Assembly (NCBI RefSeq): GCF_008831285.2 | Contig: NC_045138.2 | Location: 40,911,115 to 40,975,114 of the forward strand | Source of the DNA: Nymphaea colorata | Lineage: Eukaryota; Streptophyta; Magnoliopsida; Nymphaeales; Nymphaeaceae | DNA length: 64,000 nt | Direction: 5' to 3' | Part shown: positions 11,900 through 59,075 of the stretch, one piece after another | Layout of the letters: the number at the start of each line of letters is the position of its first letter | Position numbering within the stretch: position 1 is the stretch's first letter | Translations under genes and position numbers: made by a program | Notes under the pieces: generated by a model | Seen by the model: the letters and a program-made list of their open reading frames with translations, nothing else | Told to the model about the DNA's origin: nothing | Database searches by the model: none

Positions 11900-14800
11900 G
11901 GTACTTGACGGAGAAGGGAAAAGGAGAGGACGGGAGAGTCACTCGTATTATCCGGAGAGCATACTGGAGGAACAGAGCATCGTCGGTTCAGGCGACAAGA
12001 AAATGATGGTAAACACCGGAATCTTGGACGGACTGACGTTTTAAGGTTCCGGTGGGCACCATTTTTCTCATTCACTGCGGGAAGATGTGAACAAGGAGGT
12101 TGCGTTCTTTCTCCCCATGTCTTGCTTGTCCTGCATCCATGGTTCTCCATTCCTCCCATCTCCCCTGGTTCACATCTTTGCCAGCTTCCAAAAATTTTCG
12201 TTAATTTTTCTTATTTCTTATGTGAATTGTTCATTTGCTGGTTTTTTCTTTGTGCGACTCGTGTGCTCTCTGTGCCGAATTTCGTCAACATTGCTTGATT
12301 TTCCCTTTGGGCATGAAATTCTCTTTTCTAAGTACAACTTGATGAAGCAAATATCATGTCAAGACTCTGAAAGTTTCGTAATTAAAATAATGTTCGGCAT
12401 AGTTGCGTCTTCAGCGATTGATCCCTGCATGTGTACCGCTTTTAGTTCTTCAGGGAATCCAATTCTTTTTTTATTTCCAGGCCATTAGTTTGTTCTCAAT
12501 CCATTCTCCTACTCGAGGGAGTTGATTTGCCCCTTAATTTGATATATTTTTCTTGTTTCGTGACACTTGTACCCTCTTCATGGTTCACGATCCTTCCTTA
12601 GACACTAATGTTTGCTGAAATTAGTAGACTGGTGTTTATTAGATGCAAAAAGGACAAAAAGAAGATTGTTGATTAGTTTCTGGTAATTTATTTGAACTAA
12701 TTGTATGTGTAAATCATTGTATCTGAACAGATTATGATAAGAAGAAGTGAAAGAGGCTTTGAAAAATTTTAAGGTTATCTTAGCTTGCTGGCTAGAGTAA
12801 ATTTAAATTGTTCGTAGAAGATGGGGGTCCTACTACCAACCAGAAGCTTTATTATATAGCTGCTTTTTGCCTGCCTCCAAGTAATTCATTATCATTGGGA
12901 CTGGTGTGACTATGATTCTATGAACTATGTTACCCGAATCTTAGAGAAGTTGCTTTTGTGATTGTTTGTCGTAATATCTTGGTTCCTCAGTGTGAGAGTT
13001 TCATATGTTATAAACTTCTGCAGTCACCAAGAAGTACGATATTTATCCTTGTTCCACTTGTATGGGTCCAGAACCCAGGGCTGACCTAATTCTCCATTTA
13101 TTTGTATTTGGATTTAATTTATTGTATTACTCCAAATACTTGCCAGTCTCTCACTCTTCTTAGATATACAATCTATCCTATAAACATCATCGACTGCATG
13201 GTGCTATTATATCTGTTCATTGTCCATACCATTTAGATAACACTTGACTTCTCAAAAGTTATGGGCTTTCCAGCAGATCTTCCTAGTTTATCTAATCCAG
13301 ATTCCAGAGCTTGTTCTTCTATTATCCCAAACAGCTGGTATAATATATTTATAATTTATCTTATGCACGTTCACTCTTTGTTCTTACCACTATCCTCTGC
13401 CCCTTGCAATAAGTCTATGTGATAGTGAAGATATTGCTGGAGTCATGTGACACTGCCCTTTTAGTCTTGCTCTATGTGCTTATCATAAGAACTGATTGTC
13501 TTTAAGTATTCACTTAACAGAAAATTTATATGGTATTATTATGGTATTATTGGGCAACTTTGATATGTCATGTGCTATTTTAGTGACCTATATAGATGAC
13601 CCACTTCCATTATCCAGATAAGAGGAGCATAGGGGAATATGCTTCTTCTTGGGATAATTGCATGGGCTTGAAGCTAACAGTGCTAATTTGTCTTAGTCAT
13701 TTGGCTTTGGTGGCGGAAAGACTTCGACAAGCTTATTCATTGAAATTATTTGAAACTAGATGTTTTATCTTAGGGTAAGGATCAGCAATGAAGGCTAAAA
13801 ATATTGATAAATTCGGTTGAGTTATCATTACTAATTGAAGGTGGTTCAGAAATGATGTAATAGCTGGTTACCTTGCATGTTGATTTTTCTGATGATCAAA
13901 AGGCATGTATTGGTCTAATAATTCATAAGATCCCAAGCTAACTTTCTTATTTCGACATGTATGTAATTGTATATTGATTTTTCTGATGATCAAAAGGTAT
14001 GTATTGGTCTAATAATTCATAAGATCCCAAGCTAACTTTCCTATTTCAACATGTATGTATGTATGTATGTATGTCATGAACTATTAACTGTTACCTCTCT
14101 CTTTTCAACATTCACTTGTTTTCCTGTTCTTTTTTGGAGAAAATCCTGCTTAGATTTGCTATCTTACTTGAATTAAATAAAAAGTCAAGGGGGTAAGAAA
14201 GAGATGCAGTAATAACTAAGCTGTTGAAATTTAGCCATTACCCTTGTATACTACCTTTTAAGTTTTCTTGGTAGTCTTTCTTGTTTCCTCATCACTTAAA
14301 ATTGTTCACTGCATTGAATGTTGGTTGAGGCATAGCAGCTTAGGCCTTGAAATGATTTGTAGCTATCCAAGTCCAATTTTTATTCTAAGTACATAAATAA
14401 AAGCCTAACTGTTATTCTTGTCTTCTGAAGCTCATGCACGGTATTGTAACTTGAGAAAAAAAAACAATATTGCGGCCATGTATTGTACACCAAGTTGCTG
14501 ACTGAATGTCAGTTGTGCCTGTGGAAGTCCTTCCATACAATATTGTAACTTAGAATCTTTAGTCCCTGGTTCTAATAGTGTTGGGACTTTTATCTTTGTT
14601 CTTATTTTAGATTGCCGTTTGTTTGGCAAGTTTTCTAGCATTATTATGTTAAGTGTGTGTAACGAGTAACACACCATTTATGCTTCTGATTTTTCAGTTA
14701 GAGACCTATTTGCATCTTGAAAAGACAGGTTGTGAAATGAAAGACTGTTTCTTTCTATAGACAAATTAACTTGTCATCCCAGTTTTGTTCACCCCATGCC

Positions 14801-30500: not shown

Positions 30501-33500
30501 ATTCATATAAACCCGTTTTCTAGTTAGTAAAAGCTTGGCTTAGGCAGATCTGCACTCTAGGTTATGGAAAGAGACAACCTGTATGCTAAATCCTTGGCCG
30601 CCTTCAGGTTTCAACTGAAAGGGCTTAAGATAACCTGCCACTCATCAAGGTGTAGGAGCTTATGTTTTGCATTTGACACTGAACATAAAAGAAAATACCT
30701 ATATGCAAATCTAATCCATGTAGGTGCACATGCAGTCAGATGTTTACATGCATAGTTAGTATTATGTCAAAAAAGAACACAGGCCATCCAAAAGTGGAAC
30801 AGACCATAGTCTATTTTCAGGGCTCAAAGCATGCACTGAATGAAATATAGTTTTTCAACTCTGAAATATATATGTCAGAGGAACAAAGTTTGGAACGAGA
30901 GAATAACCCCACAAAAGTTTGCATGCGATGTTTTACCAAAATAAGGATGCATAAATATTGAGGAAATGGCACCTAAGTCAGATGGGTGTTTCACTTGGTT
31001 GTTTGTATGGCAGGTATGGGCTACAGATACTTGGACACACGAGGTTACCTTTTGGATCAGATTCAGTCAGAGCTAGATATAATCCAATCAAAACTTTGAA
31101 AAGTTCACTTTTTCCTATATATATATCATAGTCACAAATAGTGTCTCGGAGTTTTAAACAGCAAGGTTTTTCTCGGGTATAATACGGCGGGCTTCAAAAA
31201 TACGAAGGGCTTGAAAAATACCAAAAAAATGGTATTTCTTTAAAAAATATTAAAAAACTAAAAATAGGGGGAAAATAAAATAAGTAAGAAAATAATAACA
31301 CAAATATCAAAAGCTAAGTAGATTTGCAACAAATAAAAAATATAAAATGAAAAAAAAAACTGTTTGGCATTAAAAAAATGAAAAAAAATGGAAAACACGA
31401 AAAAAACGCGTAACATTGTTTTAAAGTTTTAAACGGCATTTCATTTTCTCGTGTTTTTTTTGGAAAATAATGCGTTTTTTGTGACTATATATATACACCC
31501 AGCAGTACCCTGTACCCTCTATTTTGTGGAATAGTTGTGTTTTGTACATTCTGATTCTGTACCTACTTGTCTGGCAGAATTAAACATATTAGGTCTATCC
31601 TCAGAACTTAAAAAACAAAAGAATTGGCACTGAAAATGACTCTGCATTGCATCTATATTGCAAATTGCTCTACCTTTTGGGCAGAAAAGCTTCAGATGAA
31701 TTGGATGAACTCATCAAATAAGAACCTGGATTTTATACTTTCATTAGATGGCTAATTTAGATACTTTATCTTCATGCACTTCAAAGGCATGTAATAGTTG
31801 TTTTTTGTACATTCTGTACCTACTTGTCTGGCAGAATTAAACATATTAGGTCTATCCTCAGAACTTAAAAAACAAAAGATCAATTGGCAATGAAAATGAC
31901 TCTGCATTGCGTCTATATTGCAAGTTGCTCTACCTTTTGGGCAGAAAAGCTTCAGATGAATTGGATGAACTCATCAAATAAGAACCTGGATTTTATTCTT
32001 CATTAGATGGCTAATTTAGATACTTTATCTTCATGCACTTCAAAGGCATGTATATATTAATTCCTTTTCTTAGCACTCAAGTTCATATAAGCAGCTATGC
32101 ATCACAGATTGCATATGGTAACAGAGAGAGACTCAAAAAGAAATTCTCTAGCCTCATATCCCTACCCTGAAATTACCTTGCAAAAGTTTTTCTGAGCTTG
32201 CTCAATTGTCACAGTGGGCATCTTTCCATTTCGCATCAAGTTCACAGTTTTAGTACTCAGGCGCCACTGACGACAAGTCTCTAGTGCCAGATATGGACAT
32301 ATCGCACTGGAGGAGGAATAAGCAGATGTTATTAGCTCAATCACTAAATATAAATGCAATTTTATTAGGTATAATAATAACGTTGCAAAATGCAATGCAA
32401 AAATAGATATTCAGGAGAAATTCTATGCTTACACTTCCCTGAAAAGGACAGCTGTGGATGTAATAGGAAAGCAATTTCTTAGGAGAAGAAATAAACTATA
32501 TGAAGAAGTGTAGCACTATTAGCTTGAGGAATGAAATCCAACTCCATAGAATGAAATGTGAAGCACAAAAATAAATGGCAATGCTTCTCAGAGTATAGTG
32601 CAAAAAGGAAGACTTATTCACTCCAAAGTAACAAATGAATGCATGCAACAGGCAAGGAAACATATGTACCCCATAAAACATGTGTCTTTCCTATGCACCA
32701 TCTATGGAAAGTAGTTCTTTCCCTAATGATCTTCTAATAACCTAAGCTTGTTACAGATGGCTTCCTACCTAATAATCTTACTGAGCTTTGTGTGCCAGAG
32801 TTATGTGTACGGTGGATCTAGATCTCTTGAGTGGTTGCATCTCGCTCTTTTCTTGAATAGTTGCAAGCGAATGTATCTCGTCAAGATTCTTATGCAGCAG
32901 ATGTTGTGTTTCCCCATAATAAGGTACTTAAATATGATTAATTCTTTAGAAAGGTGACTAGTTTATGCTTTGGTTCTCCTAAAAGAGAGGGTATACATGG
33001 ACAAAAGAAGCAGATTCCACAAACTGCAATAAGTGGCTTCAGTTGATAACCTGATATATAGCTTAGATCCAATACGGAGGAGAAAACAAAAAAAAAATTG
33101 TTACTCTCCAACTAGAACATTTATAAAACTATTTTGTCAATTTCATGTTGTTTTTCCATGATTCAGATTCCTACAATAACTTCTTGTTCGATATCTTTAT
33201 CTGATACTGAAAACTACATCATCATCATCATCATTAACATTATTATTGTTATTAATTATTATCATTACTACTGCTATTACTAACTACCACCACCATTACT
33301 ATCAATATACACTTCATCCAATCTGTTGGCATATTTGCTGATCCAGTCTCCATCTAATCTTCTGCATGAACAGTATGCCTTGACATTCAGATGCCAAATT
33401 TACATGTCAAACAATCAGATGTTGTCAACTCAAAGCTGGATACCAGGTCAATGCAGGAAAAGCAGATTCTATTTGCTAGAGAAGGAAACTATGAGGAAAT

Positions 33501-42500: not shown

Positions 42501-45500
42501 AGCCTATCTACCACCACTGGAAGAATACTGAGACTAACGAGTACTGTGTACAATGGTCAATGAATACAAGACATATTTTTGCATATGGATATTTTTATAT
42601 TGCTTCATACATGCACACATATACTCATCCAATTATTGCAAAATTATTATTCCTGTAACACCTAATGGCATAAAAATTAGATCCCAATCGCTCATCATTG
42701 CAAGAACTCATTTTCAATGTTGTGTCATTACTGGATAAATCAAAGGGAATAAAAGTAAAATTCTAAGAAGACATGTCACATTTTCAAATCAAGGTATCTC
42801 CCAACCGAGTAACCTATTCCTATATTACAAATTTATTTGGTCAAAAATAGCATTCTCTGCCAAGTTATGGCTTGTTTGCATCACAATATAAGCAGAACAA
42901 ACTTGTGAACCTTATGTCCACTTATGGTGTGTGCATAAAACTTAGAAAAACAAAGATTGAATTAACAGAAAGTTATCGAGAAGATAAATTCATATAACAT
43001 CAAAAGTATGTAATTTCATGAGCTGATCATACTTCAGCAGCACTGTCAAGGTTGGCCGAATCTGATGCCCTTGAATCACCAAAAGGACGAAGTTCATTTT
43101 CACGGCCACGCCAAACAGGAGATTTGATTGATGACTCACGAGATTGCATCCAATTCAAGTTTCCCTATGAAGAGCATTAAATGTCTTGTCACTAATTACT
43201 ACCATGAAATAGTGAACATAATGGATAAAAGCAAACAGTTTAGAGGGAAGACAAAACCTGTATGGTATTTATTTCCCCGTTGTGGCCAAGCAACCTCATT
43301 GGCTGAGCAAGAGGCCATCTTGGACTAGTATTTGTGCTGTACCTTCTATGGTAAATGGCAAAAGGTGATTTGTATAGCTCACTCTGAAGATCCAGATAGA
43401 ACTGCCCCAATACCTCCGACCGAAGCATACCTTTATAGACTATTGTTTGATTAGATAAAGAGCAGAAGTAGAGCTCACTGCCCCATTCCTTTTGTTTTGC
43501 TTCTCTTTCAATCAATTTTCGGGTAATGTACAATTCCCTTTCAATGTCATCAACATTGTCTTCTTTTTCCACTTTGACAAACACTTGCTGTATGTTAGGC
43601 ATCGTTTCTCTTGCATAATAGCCTACTACAGAAACATTTGTAGGTACAGGCCTCCAACCTAGAACCTCAAGCCCCTCTTGCTTCATAATATTGACAATAA
43701 CTGCAAAACTAGTAAATAGAACATATGAGAAAACAGTAGCATGTGTATAAGATACTATAAGATTATACTTCAAAGGGAATGACATAAATTGCCCAAGATA
43801 GACAAGGAAATGATGGACTAATAAGGCATTGTTAGACCAGTAAAATAGGACTCAAAGAACAAACAGTCCAAAACAGATTGAGTTAAATGAACTGACATTT
43901 GATACTCCCACTTGGTTGTGGAACTCTTCTGAGTCGGTTGTGGATAAATCAATGCAGAAATGATGAAAGATGGCAGCACAAATTTCATCAATAAATACTT
44001 CTGAATAAACATGAACTGACAATGCACATTAACTTTTAAGTAACTCAAAACATACAATGATGACTACAGTTCTCAGCCGTAACTACACTATAAAAGTAAA
44101 AATACATAAGCTAAAAGTCACCTGTCTTTGCTTCTTTCAACTGAACCTCATCCTTGGGGAGAAAAACCATTCCCACACCAGTGTTTGACTCATTAAATAG
44201 AGCAATTCCTTGTTTGTCAGCCCAATTGTTGAAAAGGTCCCATGGAATGCTGCTCATCACCCCAGCACCATCCCCAGAATCATTATCTGCACCACAACCT
44301 CCACGATGCTCCATGCAGCCAAGGGCAGTTAATGCATCACTTATGATAGCATGAGATGCCTTGTGTCTCAAGTTAGCAATGAACCCAACACCACAAGCGC
44401 CCCTTTCAGAAATAATGTCCTCCAAATTAACCACCTGCAGGATTGCACATGTTAGTATTATGAACCAGTATACACTAATGCCTGATAAGTTGCAGAATCT
44501 TGCATACCTCACCAAGAAATTGTAAAAGATAAGATGAAGTTCAGCAAGTTACATGAAATAAAAGCAGCTAAGCATCTTATTGGATATCCAAAACAGTGAC
44601 AATTCATAAATCACAAGGTGCAGATAACGTTGGTAAGCATTTGCAAGTTAGTCAATGCAATGGCAGATTTGATTCTTCAAAATGAGAAACAAAGAAATAT
44701 TATTAATGCAATGCAACACTGTGACTCGAATTAGTGTATCGACCAAAATTCCTATCTCTTCATTTGATGTACCAGACAATGAAAAGAAGAGCATGCACAT
44801 ATCAGCAGACAAAGATACAGATCCATACATAAACAGGAATGTGAATAATATACAGATATGTACACATGAATGCATGTCAGCTAGTCAGAAATCACAGGAA
44901 TGCACGTATGAGAATCTAAGGCTCGACAAATTGATAGGAAAAACTCAGAAATCTTCTGGCTCTTGGGCCGAATTCCAACACACTACCCAGCCAATCTAAC
45001 CCTGCTAACTGTGTGTAACAGAGCGGCAAATACTTCATCAAATTGCCAAATCTTTGTAAATTTGATTTCTATTAACCAATTATGTACCCCACAGCTGCCC
45101 CTCCCTCTTCCATTTATTGTTTGTGGATGACAATAATCTTGACTAATGGAACCAAGATTTCTCCAAATAATCACATCTTCAGAGCGGGTATGCCTCAGAC
45201 ATGGGAGGAAGTGACTCTGACGGTTGGACAAATCTATCTCTTTTGAGCAAACCCTACCATGGAACTCCTTGAGCTTCTTCCATGGGCACCTTCTTCAAAA
45301 GTTTTCCATATTTTCATGGGAAATCCTGACGTAATATTCCAACATTAACAGAGTAGACTCATCAGATCGATAGTGAAAATATGATGTTAGCTCCAGGGAC
45401 AAGCATTAGGGAATCTTCTTTAAGCATTCTTTTTAGGCCTTAAGTGGGCGTCCTCAAGGATTTGCCAGCCCTTCTCATTTCCTGCAACTATCCTTCTGCA

Positions 45501-47423
45501 GGTTGATCCCTAATGACCAAGTTTAGCTTTGTTCATTTTTTCCCCAAAAAAAGGAAGAAGAAAAGATTCACAAGGAGCCCAGGGAAAGATATCAAACATT
45601 TGGATTTATCATCCTTACTAAAAGTGTTTTCCTTCAACAAGTATTGTCAGCGACTCAGCGGTAAGGGATCAAAAAATACTGGCTTTTTCTCTTTAACCAA
45701 TCTTACACTTCGTTATCAGTAATCATCGCCAAACAGCCATAGAACACTTCTGCTTTCTATGTAACCCACGATGCAGTTGGTGCATCCATAATCCACAATG
45801 TTTTTTGAAGCATCAACTTTTAGCATGCCCTAAAAAGAGAAAGATAAAGAACACGTCTGCAAACAACCACTGATACCTATATTGAGCAACAGGTAATTGC
45901 AACTAAGATTTTTATCCTACTCGAAAAAATTATCAAGGATTAGAAGCTTCCAAGTGAAAATATTCAGTAACAGAAAAAGCACAACGTGAAAATGTAGGAT
46001 GCCATCCTGCCACAGAAGACATATACGAATTTTTCATTGAGTAATGAACAACTCCTAATAAGACTTAAATCCTTAACCTCTTAGTTGCGTGTGTCCAATA
46101 TTTTATTTCCATATATTCAAATTATTTAACTGATCATCACCATTGGCTACCGAAACCTTTCCTGTTTACAAACTGCATCCAATGTTTCATTTCCGTATAC
46201 TGAATAACTGAACTGAAGACCAACAGCTTCTGAAGTCCTAACCATCAGAAAGCTGTTTACCGTTAGGTTGAAACTATGATCCCAATGAGTAACTCCCTCG
46301 TGGACTCTGCTTATCACTTCATCATACAGTTTCCACATCAGAATTCAAAGAAAACCTTATTCAAGGTAAGACGTCCACGCATGTCGGGTCTCCACACTTT
46401 CCCATAATTACAAGATAAGAACGAAAGATTAGCAGACGAACAATTCTACAGAAGCCCTCTACCGGCAACAGCATTTCCTTCTTCCACGCCCACTACACGA
46501 TAAAATTATCTCATCCAATTATGATGACAACCCAAAGTTATCAACATACGCAAGATAATGATGGATTCAGCTTTTTGGATTTTGAAGAAGAGAAGGACAA
46601 GGATCTTAGAACCAGCGATCTAACCAAGTAAAGCAACGCACTGAAAGCCCCATCCATTCTTATGCATTGATAGAATGGATATATGACGAGCTCTCCCGCC
46701 CACAGGAATTCCACTAACCCGCCGACCGAATTGGACCCAACCATTATGAAATTCGATGATACGATTAACAAGCCGTCACCAATCATCGTGCCTGACTCCC
46801 AGCTTCTTGATTCATAATCCACTTTGCTAGCGCTTCCAAGATTCTAGGAATGTTACACAGAGTATGCCCACCGAGCCCATCAAGAACCCGCCAAAGCCAA
46901 TGAGCAAACAAGAAAGCTGCAGAGGAAAAGGGGCAGGATAAACCGGGGTATCTAGCCTCCAACAACAAGAAGAAGAAAAAGGATTGAGTAGAGGAATTCC
47001 CCAGCATTTGGTGATCACAGCCGAACCAGAACACACTCCGATCACTCAGAATTCCAAAGTACTACCCACCGCCAAAAGCGATTAATCATAGCAAAACAGA
47101 ACCAATTGAAAACTCACTAACCAAACATGCGATCAGAATTCCAAGCTCACCTTCTTCTGATTGTTCGGCAAGACCGAACTGGCGGCGCGAATCTTTGACC
47201 AATTTGAGTGCAGACCTCTGCTTCTTGATATCTGTTGACCTCCGCGAGCTCGTCGGACCGATCTGCTCGAACTCCTCCTGCAGAACAGGCCATTGAAGTC
47301 ACCGAAAATCAGCCGCTTAGCCTCCGCAGACTGCAAAGAACTCAACGAGCGCGATGAAGGCGACGAAGACGACGATGGAGCGTAAGCCGGCTGGTGTAGC
47401 CGGTACAGAGACTGCAGCGCCAT
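18567..47423 (-). CDS. GLU1: Ferredoxin-dependent glutamate synthase, chloroplastic (Fd-GOGAT), 33 exons
   Basis: Transfers the glutamine amide to 2-oxoglutarate in plastids, using electrons from reduced ferredoxin. Exons in coding order: 47423-47151, 44434-44122, 43700-43258, 43164-43033, 42229-42131, 41881-41811, 39348-39252, 38964-38872, 38202-38057, 36327-36168, 35589-35479, 35384-35169, 33856-33699, 32306-32177, 30368-30310, 29958-29853, 27887-27791, 27511-27396, 27286-27089, 26917-26807, 25437-25198, 25079-24981, 24512-24417, 24316-24119, 24029-23955, 23792-23664, 23536-23438, 20830-20688, 20593-20500, 20427-20189, 20080-20002, 18933-18850, 18728-18567. All phases fit: 4866 nt, 1621 aa, the usual family length. 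Residues 1-104 are a Ser/Arg-rich transit peptide. Cys105 of CGVGFIAN is the GATase-II nucleophile. [10 protein letters not shown] (from 1159) lies in the FMN domain. Cys1236, Cys1242 and Cys1247 hold the 3Fe-4S cluster. The GXGXG domain closes the protein. There is no NADH-binding subunit region, so this is not NADH-GOGAT. Confidence 0.97.
19200..19415. repeat. Dispersed repeat, copy B, in Fd-GOGAT intron 31
   Basis: Partner of the stretch at about 8820-9030, in the same orientation with the same order of short conserved blocks. It contains near-palindromic segments (GGAACACATGTTTCAAGAACA and its partner GGAACGTGTTTTAGGAACA) that suggest a fold-back, non-autonomous element. It lies within intron 18934-20001. 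Confidence 0.45.
20831..23437 (-). other. Fd-GOGAT intron 27 (2.6 kb) with internal diverged duplications
   Basis: The second-longest intron of the gene. Two old duplications are visible: about 21032-21139 against 21169-21290 (shared TACTGCT, TCTGTATCTC, CGATTA, CCATTCCAT-like blocks), and about 21880-21945 against 22015-22075 (shared AGTAAGACCC, CCAGT and AAATCCATACA). No coding exon is missing here: the flanking exons join in phase. Confidence 0.6.
25984..26275. repeat. Diverged direct repeat in Fd-GOGAT intron 20
   Basis: Copies at about 25984-26094 and 26179-26275 share ACTAT, CAAAGGAT(C/T)AAGG, GTGAA(G/A)AGCCCC, CTCACATG and CACCATAATG in order. The second copy lies just upstream of the MITE at 26339. 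Confidence 0.65.
26339..26695. mobile_element. hAT-like MITE in Fd-GOGAT intron 20 (CTATGT-TIR family)
   Basis: A 357-bp insertion whose left end reads CTATGTCACATAGGTACGG; the reverse complement of the right end reads CTATGTTACAATGGTACGC. The interior has degenerate GGGTAC repeats near the left end and an AT-rich centre. The flanks TTGGCACC and TTGGTAAC fit an old 8-bp target duplication with two mismatches. It has no coding capacity. Confidence 0.75.
28194..28537. mobile_element. hAT-like MITE in Fd-GOGAT intron 16 with a perfect 8-bp target duplication
   Basis: A 344-bp element with left end CTATGTCACATGGGTGTGG and right end whose reverse complement is CTAAGTCACACTGGTGCAC. It is flanked on both sides by CTTAAATT (28186-28193 and 28538-28545), an exact 8-bp target site duplication typical of hAT transposition. 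Inside, the GGGTGTGG repeats are followed by a GATA run and purine-rich DNA. It has no ORF and so is non-autonomous. Confidence 0.88.
31128..31488. mobile_element. Candidate MITE in Fd-GOGAT intron 14 with ATAGTCAC ends
   Basis: ATAGTCACAAA at the left is mirrored by TTTGTGACTAT at the right, 361 bp end to end. The body carries CGGAGTTTTAAAC and a matching GTTTTAAA-like segment near the other end, plus A/T runs. The flanks are TA repeats, so a target duplication cannot be judged. The size matches the other intronic MITEs, but the ends differ from the CTATGT-type, so this may be a related subfamily. Confidence 0.55.
31531..32051. repeat. 263-bp tandem duplication in Fd-GOGAT intron 14
   Basis: The segment starting ATAGTTGT at 31531 is repeated from 31794 with few differences: a short indel after TACATTCTG, one extra triplet AAAAGATCAATTGG against AAAAGAATTGG, and scattered substitutions. 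Both copies contain GGCAGAATTAAACATATTAG and CAGATGAATTGGATGAACTC. It lies directly next to the MITE candidate ending at 31488 and between exons 14 and 15. It adds length only to the intron. Confidence 0.93.
33216..33300. repeat. Imperfect (ATC/ATT/ACC)n trinucleotide-rich tract
   Basis: A run of ATC units passes into ATT-type and then ACC-type units over about 85 bp in intron 13 of Fd-GOGAT. It is a degenerate compound microsatellite. Confidence 0.75.
34536..34845. mobile_element. hAT-like MITE in Fd-GOGAT intron 12 with a perfect 8-bp target duplication
   Basis: A 310-bp insertion flanked by GCTTTGAA on both sides (34528-34535 and 34846-34853), an exact 8-bp duplication. The left end CCATTGTCACACATCG and the reverse complement of the right end AGTGTCATAGGTAT share a TGTCA core but are otherwise diverged. 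The interior contains several copies of AAAATCT(C/T)..GAGATTTT-type inverted motifs and is very AT-rich. No ORF is present. Confidence 0.8.
36489..36846. mobile_element. hAT-like MITE in Fd-GOGAT intron 9 (CTATGT-TIR family)
   Basis: A 358-bp element. The left end is CTATGTGACACGGGTGCGG and the reverse complement of the right end is CTATGTCACACGGACGCGG. Flanks are CAGATAAA and TAGATAAA, an 8-bp duplication with one mismatch. The subterminal DNA has GATACGGG repeats. It is the clearest sibling of the elements at 26339 and 28194. Confidence 0.85.
40132..40549. mobile_element. Candidate palindrome-rich element in Fd-GOGAT intron 6
   Basis: The interval opens with CAGTGTTGTACATATCG and contains repeated palindromic CGTACGATAC/GTATCGTACG motifs between 40140 and 40275. 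It ends in TACGATACAACGTATATGG, whose reverse complement partly resembles the left end. The size (about 420 bp) and position suggest another non-autonomous insertion, but boundaries are approximate and no target duplication was found next to the flanking TA repeat. Confidence 0.4.
44435..47150 (-). other. Fd-GOGAT intron 1 (2.7 kb)
   Basis: The longest intron of the gene. It separates the transit-peptide exon from the exon encoding the catalytic Cys105. Long first introns in plant genes often carry enhancing elements, but I see no specific motif. There is no recognisable transposon end and no extra exon: the flanking exons join in phase 0. Confidence 0.7.
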
Positions 47424-47832: not shown

Positions 47833-50800
47833 CGTTAAGGCTTCTCCAATCTTGGCCCGAGTCGGCTCAACTCGGCCGGACCTGGTCAAGTTTGTATGTG
47901 ATAATCAACTAAGTGTGACCTTCGAAACTCGGCAAAAATAAGGTCATGAATAAACTGCCCTCTAAGTGCTTCCACATAAATGTGGCCTTGTTCTACCACC
48001 TAAGCTCACAAACCAGGTTTTCAAAGCTAGTTAAACATATCATTTAAACATATATAACATAACTTAAGGGTTGTACGACATTTATAGAGATACCAATATT
48101 TTTCAAAATCTCAACTTTTCACACTTAAATTTTCGTAAGTAAATATAGATTTGTGTTTTTGGTTTAGATCAAGTGAAAAGCTACTGAACACTTTTGTCTT
48201 ACATGCCAACTTGCAAGTTTCTCATTTACCATGTCAGATTCGATGTTCAAACTCCTAGTCATCCTTCATTAGTGAGTTTTCATTTACAGCAAATGACTAA
48301 AACCATGTGTGCTCCTCAAGTCCAACCTGATTGCATGTAAATGGCCAGACTAGAGTTAATCCCCGACTTCATGAGGTCGGGTCTGAAAGAAGGAGCGGGC
48401 TTTTTGTAATATACGGTCGCCTGGGGGCCTAATTTCGGAAGCGTGGGTCTAAATCCCAAGTTAAGGATCGCGCGTGGTGGTTGGTGGTTTTTGGAAAAAG
48501 TGAAAGGCCAAGATTCGGCTTCTCATGGGAGAGGATGATAAGCATTTGTTTTTTTCCCGTTGGGCAGATTGTTCTGTGGGTCCCACCCTTATTCCCTGAG
48601 CCGATGAACACCACTTGACCTTCATCCACAACGTTTGGCTTCCTGATAAGCGGTGCGAACCAGAGGATTTATTAGTTGAATTTCGCTTTTAAATAATTCA
48701 AGGTTGGTATTATTCTAATATGTTAACGTTTGGTCCACGTTCTACAGTGAGAACGTTATCCACCGTCAGCCAATGCATTGTGGCTTTACTTTAAAAAAAT
48801 AACCTCTCATAATTTTATTTTATTTTTCTTTTCTTTTTTTTTTTTAGTAATCCAGTAACACGATCATTTTAACTTTTTTACGTTTTCAAGCTAACGGACT
48901 TCTCCTATCTGGAAATTGTCAACTAGATCTGGGTACGTGTGAAAAAATTTAATCTATGAGATATGGCAGTATTATGAGAACTCCCGCGTGTTTGAATCGC
49001 AGAAATGTTTTCTCCGCAACACAACACGTCCCTTGTTCTAAAGTCAATTTTTTATATGGCTCTGGCACAAATATGACACGCTGTTGGACAAATTGTCTGC
49101 CCATTTTAATAGTTTCGATAACGAAACTCTACATAAAAACAACCTTTTCTTTTCCTATTACGAGCTTTTATAAAAGGGCTGGATGTTTTGTTAATTATAT
49201 AGACGACATGCTATACATTAAACAACTTCCAACCAGGCCTTTAAGTTCTACCGAGGATTTAAACTCAAAATTCGGTGTTTTAGTTCTAAATGCTTGCTGG
49301 AGTAGAAGAAATTTGTAACGGGTCAGGAGCTCCGATATAAGGTCAGATCCCTGGCCGTTTACAAAACTTGATATATATTATTCAAACAGTACTTGGCGTG
49401 CTTTTACTGTCGCAGGTGAAAAGACATAACAAACAACTTGCTGACATTGTTTTGCCCAAACAAAGTTTTGTACCTGTGAAACAGCATAACAAACAACTTG
49501 TTGTGACCCTAACAATTCTGTTCAAACATGGAGTTTTGTACCTGTGTGTTGGGATCCTCTGGCATAAATATTAGGCTTGCATGGCGTTTCTATAATTTCT
49601 TTCTGCATTGCAACTCGTTGATTGCTTGTTAACGAAAACGGGGATGGAAGCTCCCTCCCGGCAGGATTGCGTTGGAAATGTAGATGTAATCACAATATAA
49701 CTTTTACAATAATATAGCATTTTTTGGAATTATATATGTTAAGAACATATGCTCAAAGAATGTTAATACAAAAGGATTCTGCTGGCATCCAAGAACGTCA
49801 TTAATGATTCAAATGTCAATCTTCGAATGCACCATTTCAAAGTGATCATGGACAAGCTTGATTCCATGTACCAAAACTAGTGCATGCCAATGAAAGGCTG
49901 CTGGGAGACAGGCTCCCCTCCATTTATCAACAACAAAAATCGGCTATTTACAAGAAAGTACAAAAACTAGTGGCTATTGAAACAACAGCTGATCTGCTTA
50001 CGTCGTTACATTGTGGACGAGTCTCATGATCAGCTCGTCTTATTATACATGTACAACCTCCTATACCTGTTCTCATTAAATGCAATTGAGATGCAAGTCA
50101 TAAAAAGAAGAAGACGGATGTCCACTTGCTACAATATTTGGCTGCCTACTTGTTTCATTGCTACTTGTCTTGTTCTTATTTTGTTCATGGACGGCATGTA
50201 TTTGACCACATATGACATTTTGAAGAGAAAAAATCATGCATTTTTTTATTATATGCAATAAATTATCTTAGGTTTTGGCATTTATTCAAAGGTCCAAATC
50301 GCATATAAGCACAAAAAAATTGGCAATTATGCATACCATCTAATCTCATGTGGCCTAGTTCAGTCCCCTGCCCATGAAGCATCAAAGATGACCTCTTCAT
50401 CTTATAGGTTGTTTGCTTATGAGAAACTAAGTTACTAGTGGAAGTCAATGATACAGTATCTTTAATAGCATACAACATGTTTTCTCATGCTTCTTTGGTA
50501 GTTGAGATAGACAGAACAGGTGAATTAACTAGTTAATTACTTAAAAACAGTTGAGTGCAGGGAAGGAGCCAAGAATTTTTTCTTGGAGGGCCCAACTATA
50601 TGTTACAATATTTTTGCCAACCTTGCCTATGTTGACTGATAACACCTAGCTTCCTGTATAAGCTATCCATGTCCTTGCTGTGTATATATTTTACCTCCTT
50701 TACTGCAGCAATCCCTCTAAACTTTACAGCTATTTGTATGAGGTTTCCTGCAATATTTTTGTGTCCATAATATAGTTGATGTGCCCTTGCTTCTTAAATT

Positions 50801-50980
50801 TTGTTAATCTTGCATTGCAAACTTTACATAGCATTGCCGACCACCAACTCTCAACGGCGGAATTATAATGGATTGAAGCCTCAGTGTTCGCCAAGCATGA
50901 CCCTCTGTGTGTTGAACTTTCATCCTTTTTATTCCACAGCATATTTCTGTAGGTTTTTTCTTCAAAATGGAGGTTACATA
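47833..50980. other. Intergenic DNA upstream of Fd-GOGAT
   Basis: No coding exon is recognisable. It contains a diverged tandem repeat near 49417-49540 and poly-T/A tracts around 48820-48845. The first kilobase presumably carries distal regulatory sequence of Fd-GOGAT. Confidence 0.55.
49417..49540. repeat. Diverged tandem repeat, about 65-70 bp x2
   Basis: Two consecutive copies share AGGTG or CTGTGAAA, CATAACAAACAACTTG, then CAAA and GTTTTGTACCTGTG. An indel near the end separates them. Confidence 0.7.
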
Positions 50981-51669
50981 CACTACCAAAAAATAAAATG
51001 ATTGCACCGACACATGGAAAATATGACGTCAATGTAAGTCTACTTTTACAGACATTCAGAGCCAAATGTTGGTAAGTATGAAACAACTGTAAAAAATAAA
51101 AAAATGGCCAATTTTACCGATGTGTTATTATCATTGCGTTGATGAAATCGTTGTTCAAGATTACGGACGTTCGGTTGTGGTCATCGTTAAAAAGTACATG
51201 TATCGATATAGTTTTTATCAAGGTGTGACTTTCCTCACATCATTGAAACTTATCTCCACCGAAACATTACTGACATATTGCAAGAAAGGCTTTCCCGACT
51301 TATTACCATCATCTAAACCTTTCTTCTCATTTCTTTTTCTTTCCTCATTTCTTTTCTCTTCCTTCTTCCTTGCCTTGGCGAATTTGTAGCGGCTTCAGGT
51401 GTTCATCGTGTTTCTTGATTACTTAAAGTCTGAAAAGGTTGGTTCCTCAATTTCATTGCCCATTTTTTATAATTCTATATGATTTTAAGTTATAATATAC
51501 TTGTGTGGTATATATACAAATTTTTTTTGACAAGATATCGTCTTTTGGATAGTATTTAACCGTGAAACTTTGAAAGAATGTTTGCGGAGCCTAGCACCTT
51601 TCATTGAATGTTATCAGTTTTCAATTGATTTGATTACACAATACTCTTGAGAATGAGATCCGCTCAGAA

Positions 51670-51797
51670 TCTCGAGACGACGGCTTGGCCATGTTCCCTC
51701 GTGACTTTGTCCCACGACTTTAATCCATCGTGAGTATACAGTTGCAGAATTCAGAATTTAATTTACTGGCATTTGTACCATATGGAATACTGATACT
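51670..51797. repeat. Dispersed repeat, copy 1 (partner at about 55443-55594)
   Basis: Shares with 55443-55594, in the same orientation, the blocks GGCC(T/A)TGGCCATGTTCCCTC-like, TTGACTTTGTCC/GTGACTTTGTCC, CGACTTT.ATCATCGTGA and CAGAATTCAGAATTTAATTTA. The two copies bracket the Fd-GOGAT fragment and the chitinase gene. Confidence 0.75.
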
Positions 51798-52039
51798 GCC
51801 ATGCAGAGACTACTCTGTGTGTGTATTATAGTCCTCCTACTTTTTCACGGGAACGCCAATCCCATTTATTTCCTCTCCTTATTGCTTCTTACGTATCCTC
51901 TAGGGGGACGTATCAGTAAATATTTCATGAATGGGTAAAGTCATGGAGGCACTTGTTTGAATGTTTCATAAATTTACCCAAGTTTAAAAACCAAATTCAT
52001 AAAATTTCCTATCCCAAATATCCCTTGCTTACTCTTGTT

Positions 52040-52647
52040 CCTCAAGCCCCTCTTGCTTCATAATACTGGCAATAACTGCAAAACTAGTAAATAGAACATA
52101 TGAGAAAACAGTAGCGTGTGTATAAGATACTATAAGATTATACTTCAAACGGAATTACATAAATTACCCAAGATAGACAAGGAAATGATGGACTAATAAG
52201 GGATTGTTAGACCAGTAAAATAGGATTCAAAGAACAAACAGTCCAAAGCAGATTGAGTTAAATGAACTGACATTTGATACTCCTACTTGGTGGTGAAAAT
52301 CTTCCGAGTCGGTCGTGGATAAATCAATGCAAAGATGATGAAAGATGGCAGCATAAATTCATCAATAGATACTTCTGAATAAACATGGAACTGACAATGC
52401 ACATTTAACTTTTAACTCAAAACATACAATGATGACTATATTTCTCAGCCGTAACTACACTATAAAAGTAAAAATACATAAGCTAAAGGCCACCTGTCTT
52501 TGCTTCTTTCAACTGAACCTCATCCTAGGGGAGAAAAACCATTCCCACACCAGTGTTTGACTCATTAAATAGAGCAATTCCTTGTTTGCCAGCCCAATTG
52601 TTGAAAAGGTCCCATGGAATGCTGCTCATCACCCAGCACCATCCCCA
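52040..52647 (-). pseudogene. Duplicated and decayed Fd-GOGAT fragment (exon 2 end, intron 2, start of exon 3)
   Basis: This 608-bp stretch aligns along its whole length with 43675-44276 of the Fd-GOGAT gene in the same orientation: part of exon 2, all of intron 2, and the first bases of exon 3. Because the intron is retained, the copy arose from genomic DNA and not from mRNA. It is broken: on the minus strand an AAG codon has become TAG (plus-strand CTA at 52525-52527), and one C is missing from the CCCC run near 52631, causing a frameshift. The original has CTT and CACCCCAG at these places. Divergence is low, a few percent by eye, so the copy is fairly young. It cannot encode a functional domain. 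Confidence 0.93.
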
Positions 52648-53433
52648 CCACCGTTTATGCACTGAAGCAAGACAGAACTTTGACGACATAAAGGTATGAC
52701 TCTGGTTTCCATTTAGTAAACATTTTTTTTTTAAGGATCGTTTCGTTAAACTAATTAGAAGCTACTCCCAGCTCAATTTTAGCCGTACATCGAAAATTTC
52801 CTTTAATACTTTTTGCGTTAATTAGAAGCAACCTTCACAAATGAGTGGAGCTATTGTGTCGTTTAAGTTGAAACTTTATCAAGGTCTAACATTGGATGTC
52901 GATAAAAGTTAAAAAAAAAAAATTGGCCAATTTTACCAACGTGTTACCATCCTCTCGTCGATGAAACTTTTCATCACTGAAGATTTTATTGACGTTCAGT
53001 TGTAGTTGTCAGTAAAAAGTAACTTATTACCTCCATCTGAATCCTTCTTCTCATTTCCTATTCTTTTCTCTTCCTTCTTCCTCCCACTGGCGATTTTCTA
53101 ACGGCTGCAGGTGTTGAACTGCCATGGAGGAGAAGGATTTAATTTGATCAACTTTCGTCTTGAAATGGACGAATGCTCTGTTATCATCTCGAGATCCATG
53201 GCAGAATCCGTTAAGATCAGAGCCATGCATGGAGAAGGGTTTAATTAACTTCATCTGATCGTCAACTCAAGTCGACTTTTTATTTAGAGAGTACCCCTAC
53301 AGGAGGAGTCATTTATTACATACGGCTTTATTTATTTCAGTAATATAAGTTCACACAAATATGAACGTAAGGATGAGTAGCAAGTGCAGCTGCTGCCAAC
53401 CGCCCCACCGCTTCTCCATTATTTTCAAGTCGA

Positions 53434-54697
53434 TCAGCAATAAATGTTCGGTCCGGGAGTCACACCAAACTCCCTGCAGAACCTGAGATAGAACTCAACT
53501 CTGCTCCTCACAGCATCTGGCCTTCCTCCTCCGCATTCGCCGCCGTTGATGGCCCTGATGGTGGACCCGAATCCACGGCCGGTGGTGATCCCGCTGTGGC
53601 ACCTGCTGTTCTCCATCCAGAACCAGACCGCCGTCTTGAAGGACACAGTCCCGTCCAGAGCTACGAGGTCAGGGTTTCTCAGTAGATTCAAGCTTAGATA
53701 TCGTCCTGCTGCACCATAGTTGTAGTTCCTGCACACAATCATACGTATGGATCAGAAACAGGGAGGTCAGGGAGAAACCATGCAATATGTCAACTAATAA
53801 TAACATTATATATGAGTTACCAAGTAAGCTGAAGGGGGCCTCTGCCATAGTAGCTCCTGCCTGGCAGACACGGATACTGCCTTGCACTTGGACTGCAGTA
53901 TCTTGATTGAGGCCTTATTTCTCTAGTGTAGCACAAACCTGTTCGATCGTCATCGTCATCCAAATAGAAGTTATATGAGTATGCTGGATCATCATATACC
54001 AGAATTCTTTAGAATGTTTTGGTAATCCTAATCTTTCAGTTTGTGAAGACTGTACGAATGAAGACGAATCTGTTCTCATTGACATCAAATGACTCGGCCG
54101 TTCTTTTATCGATTATAGACAGTATATCAAAGCTGGTAACAGCTAGTCAAAGTTTCGACAATAATTTCCGGAACGAAATCGAGAAATTTCCGGAGATAAT
54201 CAATTTTAATGAAAGATAACGATCTTACAAGTTATGAAGAAGAAAAACTCCGCAAGAATACTGACCATTTTCTGAAAAGCCATTGATATGTTCAGCAGCT
54301 TAAAAAATCACATAATTATTGCGCGATGATGCGCCATGAAAAATGATTCTGTTCATTACGCAGTGGATAATTAGCAAGACAAGGGAACAGCATATATACT
54401 TCCAGTCTCGTGCATCACATTGGCAAGGAAAGCGGCCATCTCCCTCTTCCTGGTGACGATGGTGCCGGTGGTACCGAAGCCGGCGAAGCTCTCGGCAGCA
54501 AGAATGAAGGCATTGTACGTATACAAACGCTTCCCGGGGCACCGGCTGGGAACGGCAGCGAGGAGGCGATTGTAGAACCGAGGGGTCACAATCGTCCTTG
54601 GCTGCGGAGGGCCCTGTGCTGAACCCAACTCCAGCAGCAGAGCCACCACCATCATCACCATTACCCCTACCAACCCCTTGCAACTCTTCCTCGCCAT
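53434..54697 (-). CDS. GH19 endochitinase without chitin-binding domain
   Basis: Hydrolyses beta-1,4-linked N-acetylglucosamine in chitin; probably secreted and defence-related. Exons 54697-54400, 53938-53821 and 53728-53434 join in phase (711 nt, 236 aa), with TGA at 53434-53436. Residues 1-27 form a signal peptide. No cysteine-rich hevein domain follows it, so the catalytic domain begins at about residue 38. KREMAAFLANVMHETG carries the catalytic acid Glu97; Glu106 in CYTREI aligns by position with the second catalytic Glu. RSYYGRGPLQLTWNYNYG and the GH19 signature VSFKTAVWFWM (167-177) are intact, and the protein ends GVTPGPNIYC. The shortened loops resemble class IV catalytic domains, while the missing hevein domain is a class II trait. 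There are no frameshifts. The gene lies in the same direction as Fd-GOGAT, amid mobile DNA. Confidence 0.93.
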
Positions 54698-54759
54698 CTT
54701 TCCAAGCTGTTTCTAGTCACCTGATCTTTCTTGCACACATCTTTCGAACCCATGAAAGG

Positions 54760-54767
54760 TATTTATA
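54760..54767 (-). promoter_or_regulatory. TATA box of the chitinase gene
   Basis: The minus strand reads CTATAAATACC, with TATAAATA at 54767-54760, about 63 bp upstream of the ATG at 54697. This predicts a TSS near 54730-54735 and a 5' UTR of about 35 nt. Confidence 0.7.
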
Positions 54768-55442
54768 GGAAAAATTCTTGCTGCTAGTTTTTTTTTTGTT
54801 AAACAATTACTTATAAATCACTTGTAGATCTATCAATCTCTAATATGAGCCTACTTGGTACATCTTAATTAATAAACAAGGCGTCGATTAAAGTACTGCC
54901 CATTTGAAGCTGACAGAATCGCTTACTTATATTAAGTCAAGCACGATTTATTTAGTATTATTTACTAATTTTGACTTGGTAATTGGTTATATTTTTATCA
55001 ACTAGAACATAGAAATCAAAGGTCCAATTTTATTACATGAACTGTATAGGACGTTGGTGAAATTGAGGTGAGATCCCGTTGCACTTAAGGAAAGAACAAA
55101 CTTTCCGGTGACAGTTCCTTCTGTGTTTCTCTAACGAATTTCAAATTGATTGTCGGATTTTCAATTTCTTGATAAGAAAGAACACACAAAATGGACACCC
55201 ACAGTACAAGTTTGTTTGGTAAGAAACGTTTTAACATAAAACGGGTAGAAGCACAAAGAAAGTGTTCATAGTTACAGGGATCACCATGTTCTAACCTGAG
55301 CTGTTCAAACAAGTTAATTAAAGTTTTATCATCTAACAGACAAATCAGGCTCCATTTTTTATTTTACTAATTTGGATGCCGTGGGTACGATCTCCTATTG
55401 GGTCCCCCAAATCCCGCGGCTCGCAGGTCTCAACACGAATCT

Positions 55443-55594
55443 GGAAGAGCTCGACGGCCTGGCCATGTTCCCTCTTGACTTTGTCCTTTCCATTTCGCTT
55501 TGTCCGACGACTTTGATTCATCGTGAACATACAATTACAGAATTCAGAATTTAATTTATTGATATTTGTACCATACGAAATACTGAATTTTAGA
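55443..55594. repeat. Dispersed repeat, copy 2 (partner at about 51670-51797)
   Basis: Same-orientation partner of 51670-51797. It is slightly longer, because it contains an additional CTTTCCATTTCGCTTTGTC segment that the first copy lacks. Confidence 0.75.
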
Positions 55595-55734
55595 ATCCTC
55601 TCTGGCCACATCTAATTCATCTTCCCCCATATTTTTTTCTCTTAAAAAATTCTTGCTGGTCGGTGCAGTTCCTTCTTTTTTTTCTTCTTTCTTTGTCTTT
55701 TTGTGCTTCGTCACCCATTTTGTCCTACATTTTC

Positions 55735-55781
55735 AATTTCTCTTTCTCTCTCTCTCTCCATATATATATATATATATATAT
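55735..55781. repeat. (CT)n-(TA)n compound microsatellite
   Basis: A CT run through 55758 is followed by a TA run at about 55760-55781. Confidence 0.95.
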
Positions 55782-56024
55782 CGTGAGTTATGATGCATCA
55801 TCCCAATGCACCCAATAAATATACAATAAAAAAACAAAGGTGGAAGTTATTGTATTCTAGGGATTTTCATAAAAACAAATGCTATTCTTAGTTTTTTCAC
55901 TTGTTTGCTATCGTTTTTGTCCTTATAAAAAGCAATTTCTTCTTACTGATTAAGAGTATTCAGGTTATTATGCATTCTAGTGCAGTGTACAATATTTAGG
56001 AATCAAAGTACATTTAACTATCTT

Positions 56025-56067
<43 letters not shown>
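56025..56067. repeat. (AT)n-(GT)n compound microsatellite
   Basis: An AT run passes directly into about fifteen GT units. Confidence 0.95.
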
Positions 56068-56068
<1 letters not shown>

Positions 56069-56911
56069 GGACATGTAAGATTATTTTAAATGATGTTCAC
56101 ATCGTTGACTTAAAAAAATTTAAAGAAATACATCTAAAAAAACGTATTTTATAGATTTATAATGTTGTGACTATGAAGATAAGATTAAATATTGCATAAA
56201 TGTTAGGATAATTCTTCCATATTCTTACCTGCATTCATTAACAACTTAGCTGCAGCTTTTAGCTTGTTGACATTACCTTATATTTTTCAAATGGTGGACG
56301 AAAAAAGTGTCAAACTACATTTTTCAGTTTTCCAACAAGACATAATATATTATCAACCTAATAGAAAAACCCCATATTTACTTTTATAGACAATAAAGTT
56401 GACTGATACCTCAGCCCAAGAATAATTCTGGACCAGCTGGTAAAATACAATACCTATCAAAAAAACATGAAATTAAAAAATAACCTTATTTAAATAAACA
56501 AATTAAACTTGAAAATATTGTTGATAGAATTTGCTATTCAATATCTTCAAATGGAATATAATCGCAACCTTTTATTTTTAATCCAGCCTGATATCAGCCC
56601 TACCATACATTTCATTGATTACAAACTGTGCGGCCTGTCCACACTGTGCCATGGTTCGAAGCAATTACAGGATCCACAAAAACAAACGGCTTCAAATTTA
56701 AGCACTAAAAATTTAGTCGGTTTTTTTTTTTTTTCCCTTTGGCGTGGAACTAGAAAATATCCATGATATGAACTGGGTTTCGTACTATATCTTGCCTACC
56801 CAGGAGCACCTAGTTTTGCCATCCGGTGAAAACACAAACGCGGATGTCAAAATCTGAACAATTTAAGTCTTAAACCATTTGTTTACTGTTAAACATGCAG
56901 TTTTTATATTT

Positions 56912-59001: not shown

Positions 59002-59075
<74 letters not shown>

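Follow-up and report, generated by a model that had tools for sequence, protein, structure and literature searches.

A truncated and decaying intron-bearing copy of part of Fd-GOGAT upstream of the parent gene

Non-processed (duplicated) pseudogene fragments are a descriptive class, in which a retained intron, a stop codon and a frameshift are common features. Gene fragments, introns included, are also carried by Pack-TYPE transposons (Pack-CACTA, Pack-MULE). Parts of two reports (PMC13317346, PMC8903248) describe gene capture by CACTA elements that lie close together. The copying of gene fragments as filler DNA in plants is discussed in sections of PMC3445842, PMC7935947 and PMC4423477, and maize p2/p1 is presented as an example of filler DNA from double-strand-break repair in the pertinent section of PMC2686159. 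In the cases given there, the foreign segments that filled transposon-excision breaks in rice were 1-123 bp long (PMC4423477) and fillers at maize loci measured 1-131 bp. The sections of PMC7935947 concerned attributed some gene fragments to filler and linked this model with dispersed pseudogenes; in those sections, fragmentation or lost flanking homology was not found to mark tandem and proximal pseudogenes.

The locus described here lies in a window of 64 kb, the whole stretch of DNA analysed (GC 0.379, no N). In the self-comparison of the window, the strongest off-diagonal match among the best 80 paired 52040-52647 with 43665-44276 on the same strand. BLASTN within the window returned this match as one block of 614 columns with 94.625% identity, 25 mismatches, 5 gap openings and E = 0.0, with a sharp edge on either side. 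Under laxer scoring, the match extended to 44292 and about 52662 at 93.8%, and the edge of the copy was set at 52647 because the last ~15 bases were mostly mismatched. The MAFFT alignment gave 28 substitutions at 607 aligned sites (19 transitions and 9 transversions), a Kimura distance of 0.048 and four indel events with 6 gap columns in total; the lower mismatch count of BLAST reflects a different placement of gaps. The original prediction of a segment collinear with Fd-GOGAT, in the same orientation and including all of intron 2, was borne out by both programs, the similarity being continuous along all 608 bp. The start given there for the parent segment, 43675, was placed 10 bp too far in. 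The segment is a duplicate made at the DNA level, truncated and disabled (Table 1).

Table 1. Coordinates of the copy, its parent segment and features nearby
Feature	Position	Strand	Remarks
Copy of part of Fd-GOGAT, truncated and decaying (3' part of exon 2, whole intron 2, first 36 bp of exon 3)	52040..52647	-	94.6% identity to 43665-44276
Exon 2, 3' part, copied, 154 bp	52494..52647	-	TAG codon, D-to-G, 1-bp deletion
Intron 2, copied whole, 418 bp (421 bp in the parent)	52076..52493	-	GT and AG splice sites retained
Exon 3, first 36 bp, copied	52040..52075	-	two amino-acid-changing substitutions
Parent segment in Fd-GOGAT	43665..44276	-	exon 2 part 44122-44276, intron 2 43701-44121, exon 3 part 43665-43700
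Old dispersed repeat, left of the copy	51089..51403	+	two blocks match 52908-53115 at about 74% identity, gaps counted
Other occurrence of this repeat, to the right of the copy	52908..53115	+	same orientation
Lone CACTA-like terminus (CACTACCAAAAAAT...)	50981..51018	+	no partner end in the window; context only

The identity of the parent, a gene of nitrogen assimilation, was assessed from its open reading frames. The minus-strand ORFs with exons 2 and 3 matched Pfam GATase_2 (E = 7.4e-32 and 3.6e-61), and an ORF further along the gene matched Glu_synthase (E = 1.8e-29). Among 5 distinct PDB sequences matched by the joined exon 2 and exon 3 peptide, ferredoxin-dependent glutamate synthase 1llw ranked first (E = 2.6e-79) and the NADPH large chains came after it, at 1.2e-56 or weaker. 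The name Fd-GOGAT is therefore well supported by predicted peptides, in a comparison made with NADPH large chains and not with plant NADH-GOGAT. The parent reads through the GATase_2 domain in exons 2-3, the part on which its intactness was judged. A putative ATG lies at 47423 and the copy is upstream of it, with 4,617 bp between them, in agreement with the predicted distance of about 4.6 kb from the start of the gene. The ORF with this ATG had no Pfam match, and we infer that it is exon 1 from its position and from the earlier claim. In the same gene, judging by position, and probably in an intron, a tandem duplication was noticed at 31527-31793 and 31790-32052 (94% identity, 270 columns); Tandem Repeats Finder, run at score 80, did not list it.

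Read in the sense of the gene, the copy starts inside exon 2, crosses intron 2 and stops 36 bp into exon 3; it contains neither a start codon nor any complete exon. The gained TAG codon and the 1-bp deletion that had been predicted were both found, the former in frame at 52525-52527, where it replaces K, and the latter within a run of C opposite about 44260. The four exonic substitutions (D to G, K to stop, N to S and V to A) all alter or stop the protein. The parent intron is thus retained, and the stop codon and frameshift stand against a parent that reads through exons 2-3, as expected for a non-processed pseudogene fragment; the copy fits this descriptive class with no difference noted. 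The prediction of a decaying duplication at the DNA level was accordingly upheld by the retained intron and by the disabling changes in the exon parts. A retroposed (processed) copy was rejected, since an intron kept whole argues against an RNA intermediate and no poly-A was present at the ends of the copy; within 60 bp, the longest A/T run was 5 at the left end and 3 at the right end.

Substitutions were found at 4 of 190 exonic and 24 of 417 intronic sites, a contrast which misses the 0.05 level (Fisher p = 0.059) and in which the changes are not polarised by an outgroup. In the first MAFFT count, the intron border had been one identical base off, giving 4/191 and 24/416 instead. Exons less diverged than the intron are the direction expected if the exons of the parent are constrained and those of the copy are free, while the intron drifts in both.

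The copy is probably a locally templated insertion, that is, filler DNA of break repair. A double-strand break or a stalled fork would have arisen in the intergenic DNA upstream of Fd-GOGAT and would have been healed by DNA copied from the nearby gene body, through synthesis-dependent strand annealing or microhomology-driven template switching. In this way, about 612 bp of the gene, including the intron, would have been pasted 7.8 kb off with the parental orientation kept, and the fragment would then have drifted neutrally. Both the mechanism and the neutral drift are what we infer from the features of the two copies. Plant filler-DNA insertions attributed to NHEJ or SDSA consist of a gene piece copied as DNA, with a nearby donor retained, sharp ends and unrelated flanks, all of which are seen here. 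The donor is still present, both ends of the copy lie inside exons (exon 2 and exon 3) and no homology continues beyond them. In the flanks (636 bp on the left and 260 bp on the right), the sole matches to the GOGAT gene were words of 13 and 14 bp. The junctions, on the other hand, showed no clear microhomology: at most CC, the first bases of the copy, is shared at one of them with the right flank of the recipient.

Two comparisons count against filler. At 608 bp, the copy is longer than the measured plant fillers of 1-131 bp in the published cases compared, and it is proximal to its donor, unlike the dispersed pseudogenes to which the sections of PMC7935947 concerned applied the filler model. 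The replication slippage suggested earlier would be unlikely in its simple form over 7.8 kb, and template switching or break-repair filler would fit better.

Transposon capture (transduplication), in which a Pack-type CACTA, MULE, hAT, PIF or Helitron element would have inserted the fragment and its ends would since have decayed, is a possible but rather unlikely alternative. As in Pack-TYPE transposons, a gene fragment is involved here, with a CACTA-like end and old repeats near it, and the published cases of closely spaced CACTA elements give a precedent. After the CACTACC-type end at 50981, the bin 51001-51500 holds five ACCGAC-like motifs, in comparison with 0-2 in each of 15 other 500-bp bins of 48001-56000, the motif having been picked after the sequence had been read. 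No partner for this end was found within the window. The only exact match of TTTTTTGGTAGTG was the 50981 end itself, and with up to 2 mismatches there were 8 matches against 4.36 expected, a number reached by 8 of 100 shuffles.

The paired TIRs with TSD that enclose a gene piece in Pack-TYPE transposons were not found around the fragment. The scan covered left ends in 48001-52040 and right ends in 52647-56500, low-complexity rows being dropped before counting. In its nine settings (2, 3, 5, 8, 9, 10 and 11 bp), the observed number of TIRs with an identical TSD enclosing the copy was reached by 4-30 of 30 shuffles; for the 2-bp TSD, 13 were observed and 7 of 30 shuffles reached 13. An earlier scan of seven settings (2, 3, 8, 9 and 10 bp) with four shuffles had given 13 against 5-10 for 2 bp and values within the shuffles for the other six. 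A Helitron 3' hairpin followed by CTRR and T gave 0 candidates right of the copy on the plus strand or left of it on the minus strand, the two arrangements able to enclose it; the stems sought were perfect, G+C-rich and 6-9 bp long (shuffle mean 0.01), so that a decayed end would be missed. The bases immediately outside the two edges of the copy shared no direct repeat of 4-8 bp. Near it, 40 pairs of inverted repeats were detected; the 25 longest measured 15-32 nt, and most of these were AT-rich or consisted of simple sequence.

The fragment is also bracketed by the two copies of an old dispersed repeat (about 200-315 bp), an arrangement which could suggest capture. However, these copies run in the same direction, and 39 of their 202 ungapped sites are different, compared with 28 of 607 for the fragment, so that they are not a pair of ends that arrived together with it; their interpretation as LTRs was rejected on the same figures. 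The absence of transposon ends from a decayed region of 8.5 kb, with old repeats and a CACTA-like end near, is negative evidence and speaks only weakly for filler. The capture proposed in the original prediction nevertheless found no support, as TIR/TSD counts were at shuffle level and neither a Helitron end nor a direct repeat at the edges was detected, although ends that have decayed may have escaped these scans.

A leftover of a larger tandem or segmental duplication, the remaining parts of which were deleted, is decidedly improbable. The same orientation and the spacing of 7.8 kb would suit it, and tandem and proximal duplicates are reported to be in excess among plant pseudogenes in the relevant section of PMC7935947. 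However, the flanks of the parent could not be traced on either side of the copy beyond the 13-14 bp words, which argues against such a remnant unless deletions cut both edges; these deletions would have to be independent, each stopping at the present end. An assembly artefact, in which a haplotype or a paralogue of the parent would have been misplaced, is very unlikely: a single assembly was examined, but the disabling changes, the 4.6% substitutions and the unrelated flanks on either side all speak against it, as parental flanks would normally be expected on a misplaced haplotype. Least credible is a regulatory role, in which the copy would be transcribed from a promoter of its own or by read-through and would tune Fd-GOGAT, either by way of small RNAs or by serving as an alternative upstream exon. 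In its favour, 85 of its 588 21-mers are identical to the parent exon 2-3 stretch, so that small RNAs would be possible in principle, and both donor and acceptor sites are kept in sense orientation upstream. Against it, the shared orientation allows no hairpin between the two copies and the exonic substitutions, all amino-acid-changing or stop, are as drift gives, an indirect argument.

For dating the insertion, plant substitution rates of 7e-9 to 1.3e-8 per site per year were applied to the exon divergence of 0.021, taken as one branch, or to half of the intron divergence of 0.060, which gave an age of about 1.6-4.3 Myr. Slower woody lineages have a rate of about 2e-9, at which the copy would be more than 10 Myr old. 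The description of the fragment as young was therefore not established, as the estimate hangs on the rate assumed.

The copy, a decaying gene fragment with its intron, is of a well-known kind, and the type of event is ordinary in plant genomes. Among the papers retrieved on Fd-GOGAT with pseudogene, no title was about such a copy. Its value is that of a clean single case of local, intron-retaining duplication of a gene fragment with a known donor 7.8 kb away, and of one data point on the reach of plant break-repair copying in distance and size. The general picture is unchanged by it, and it would gain more weight only if the fragment were shown to be transcribed.

The copy is located between the putative start of Fd-GOGAT and a chitinase gene of family GH19 (Pfam E = 7.1e-17 and 4.3e-23). 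This gene occupies 53434-54712 on the minus strand; neither of the two ORFs tested covered the central part of the profile (about 69-114), and all three frames were interrupted by stops where it was expected, so that the gene either is decaying or contains an additional small exon. A piece to the left of the copy resembles DNA upstream of the chitinase (51678-51793 and 55452-55586; 75.6% identity with gaps counted, 14 mismatches and one 19-base gap), and this pair is either a second repeat of dispersed type or the product of older local copying. Across the window, no tRNAs and no RNA families at gathering score were detected. Elsewhere in it, a 94-bp unit was found in two tandem copies at 13873-14059 with 94% matches, and a (TA)28 array occupies 59002-59057.
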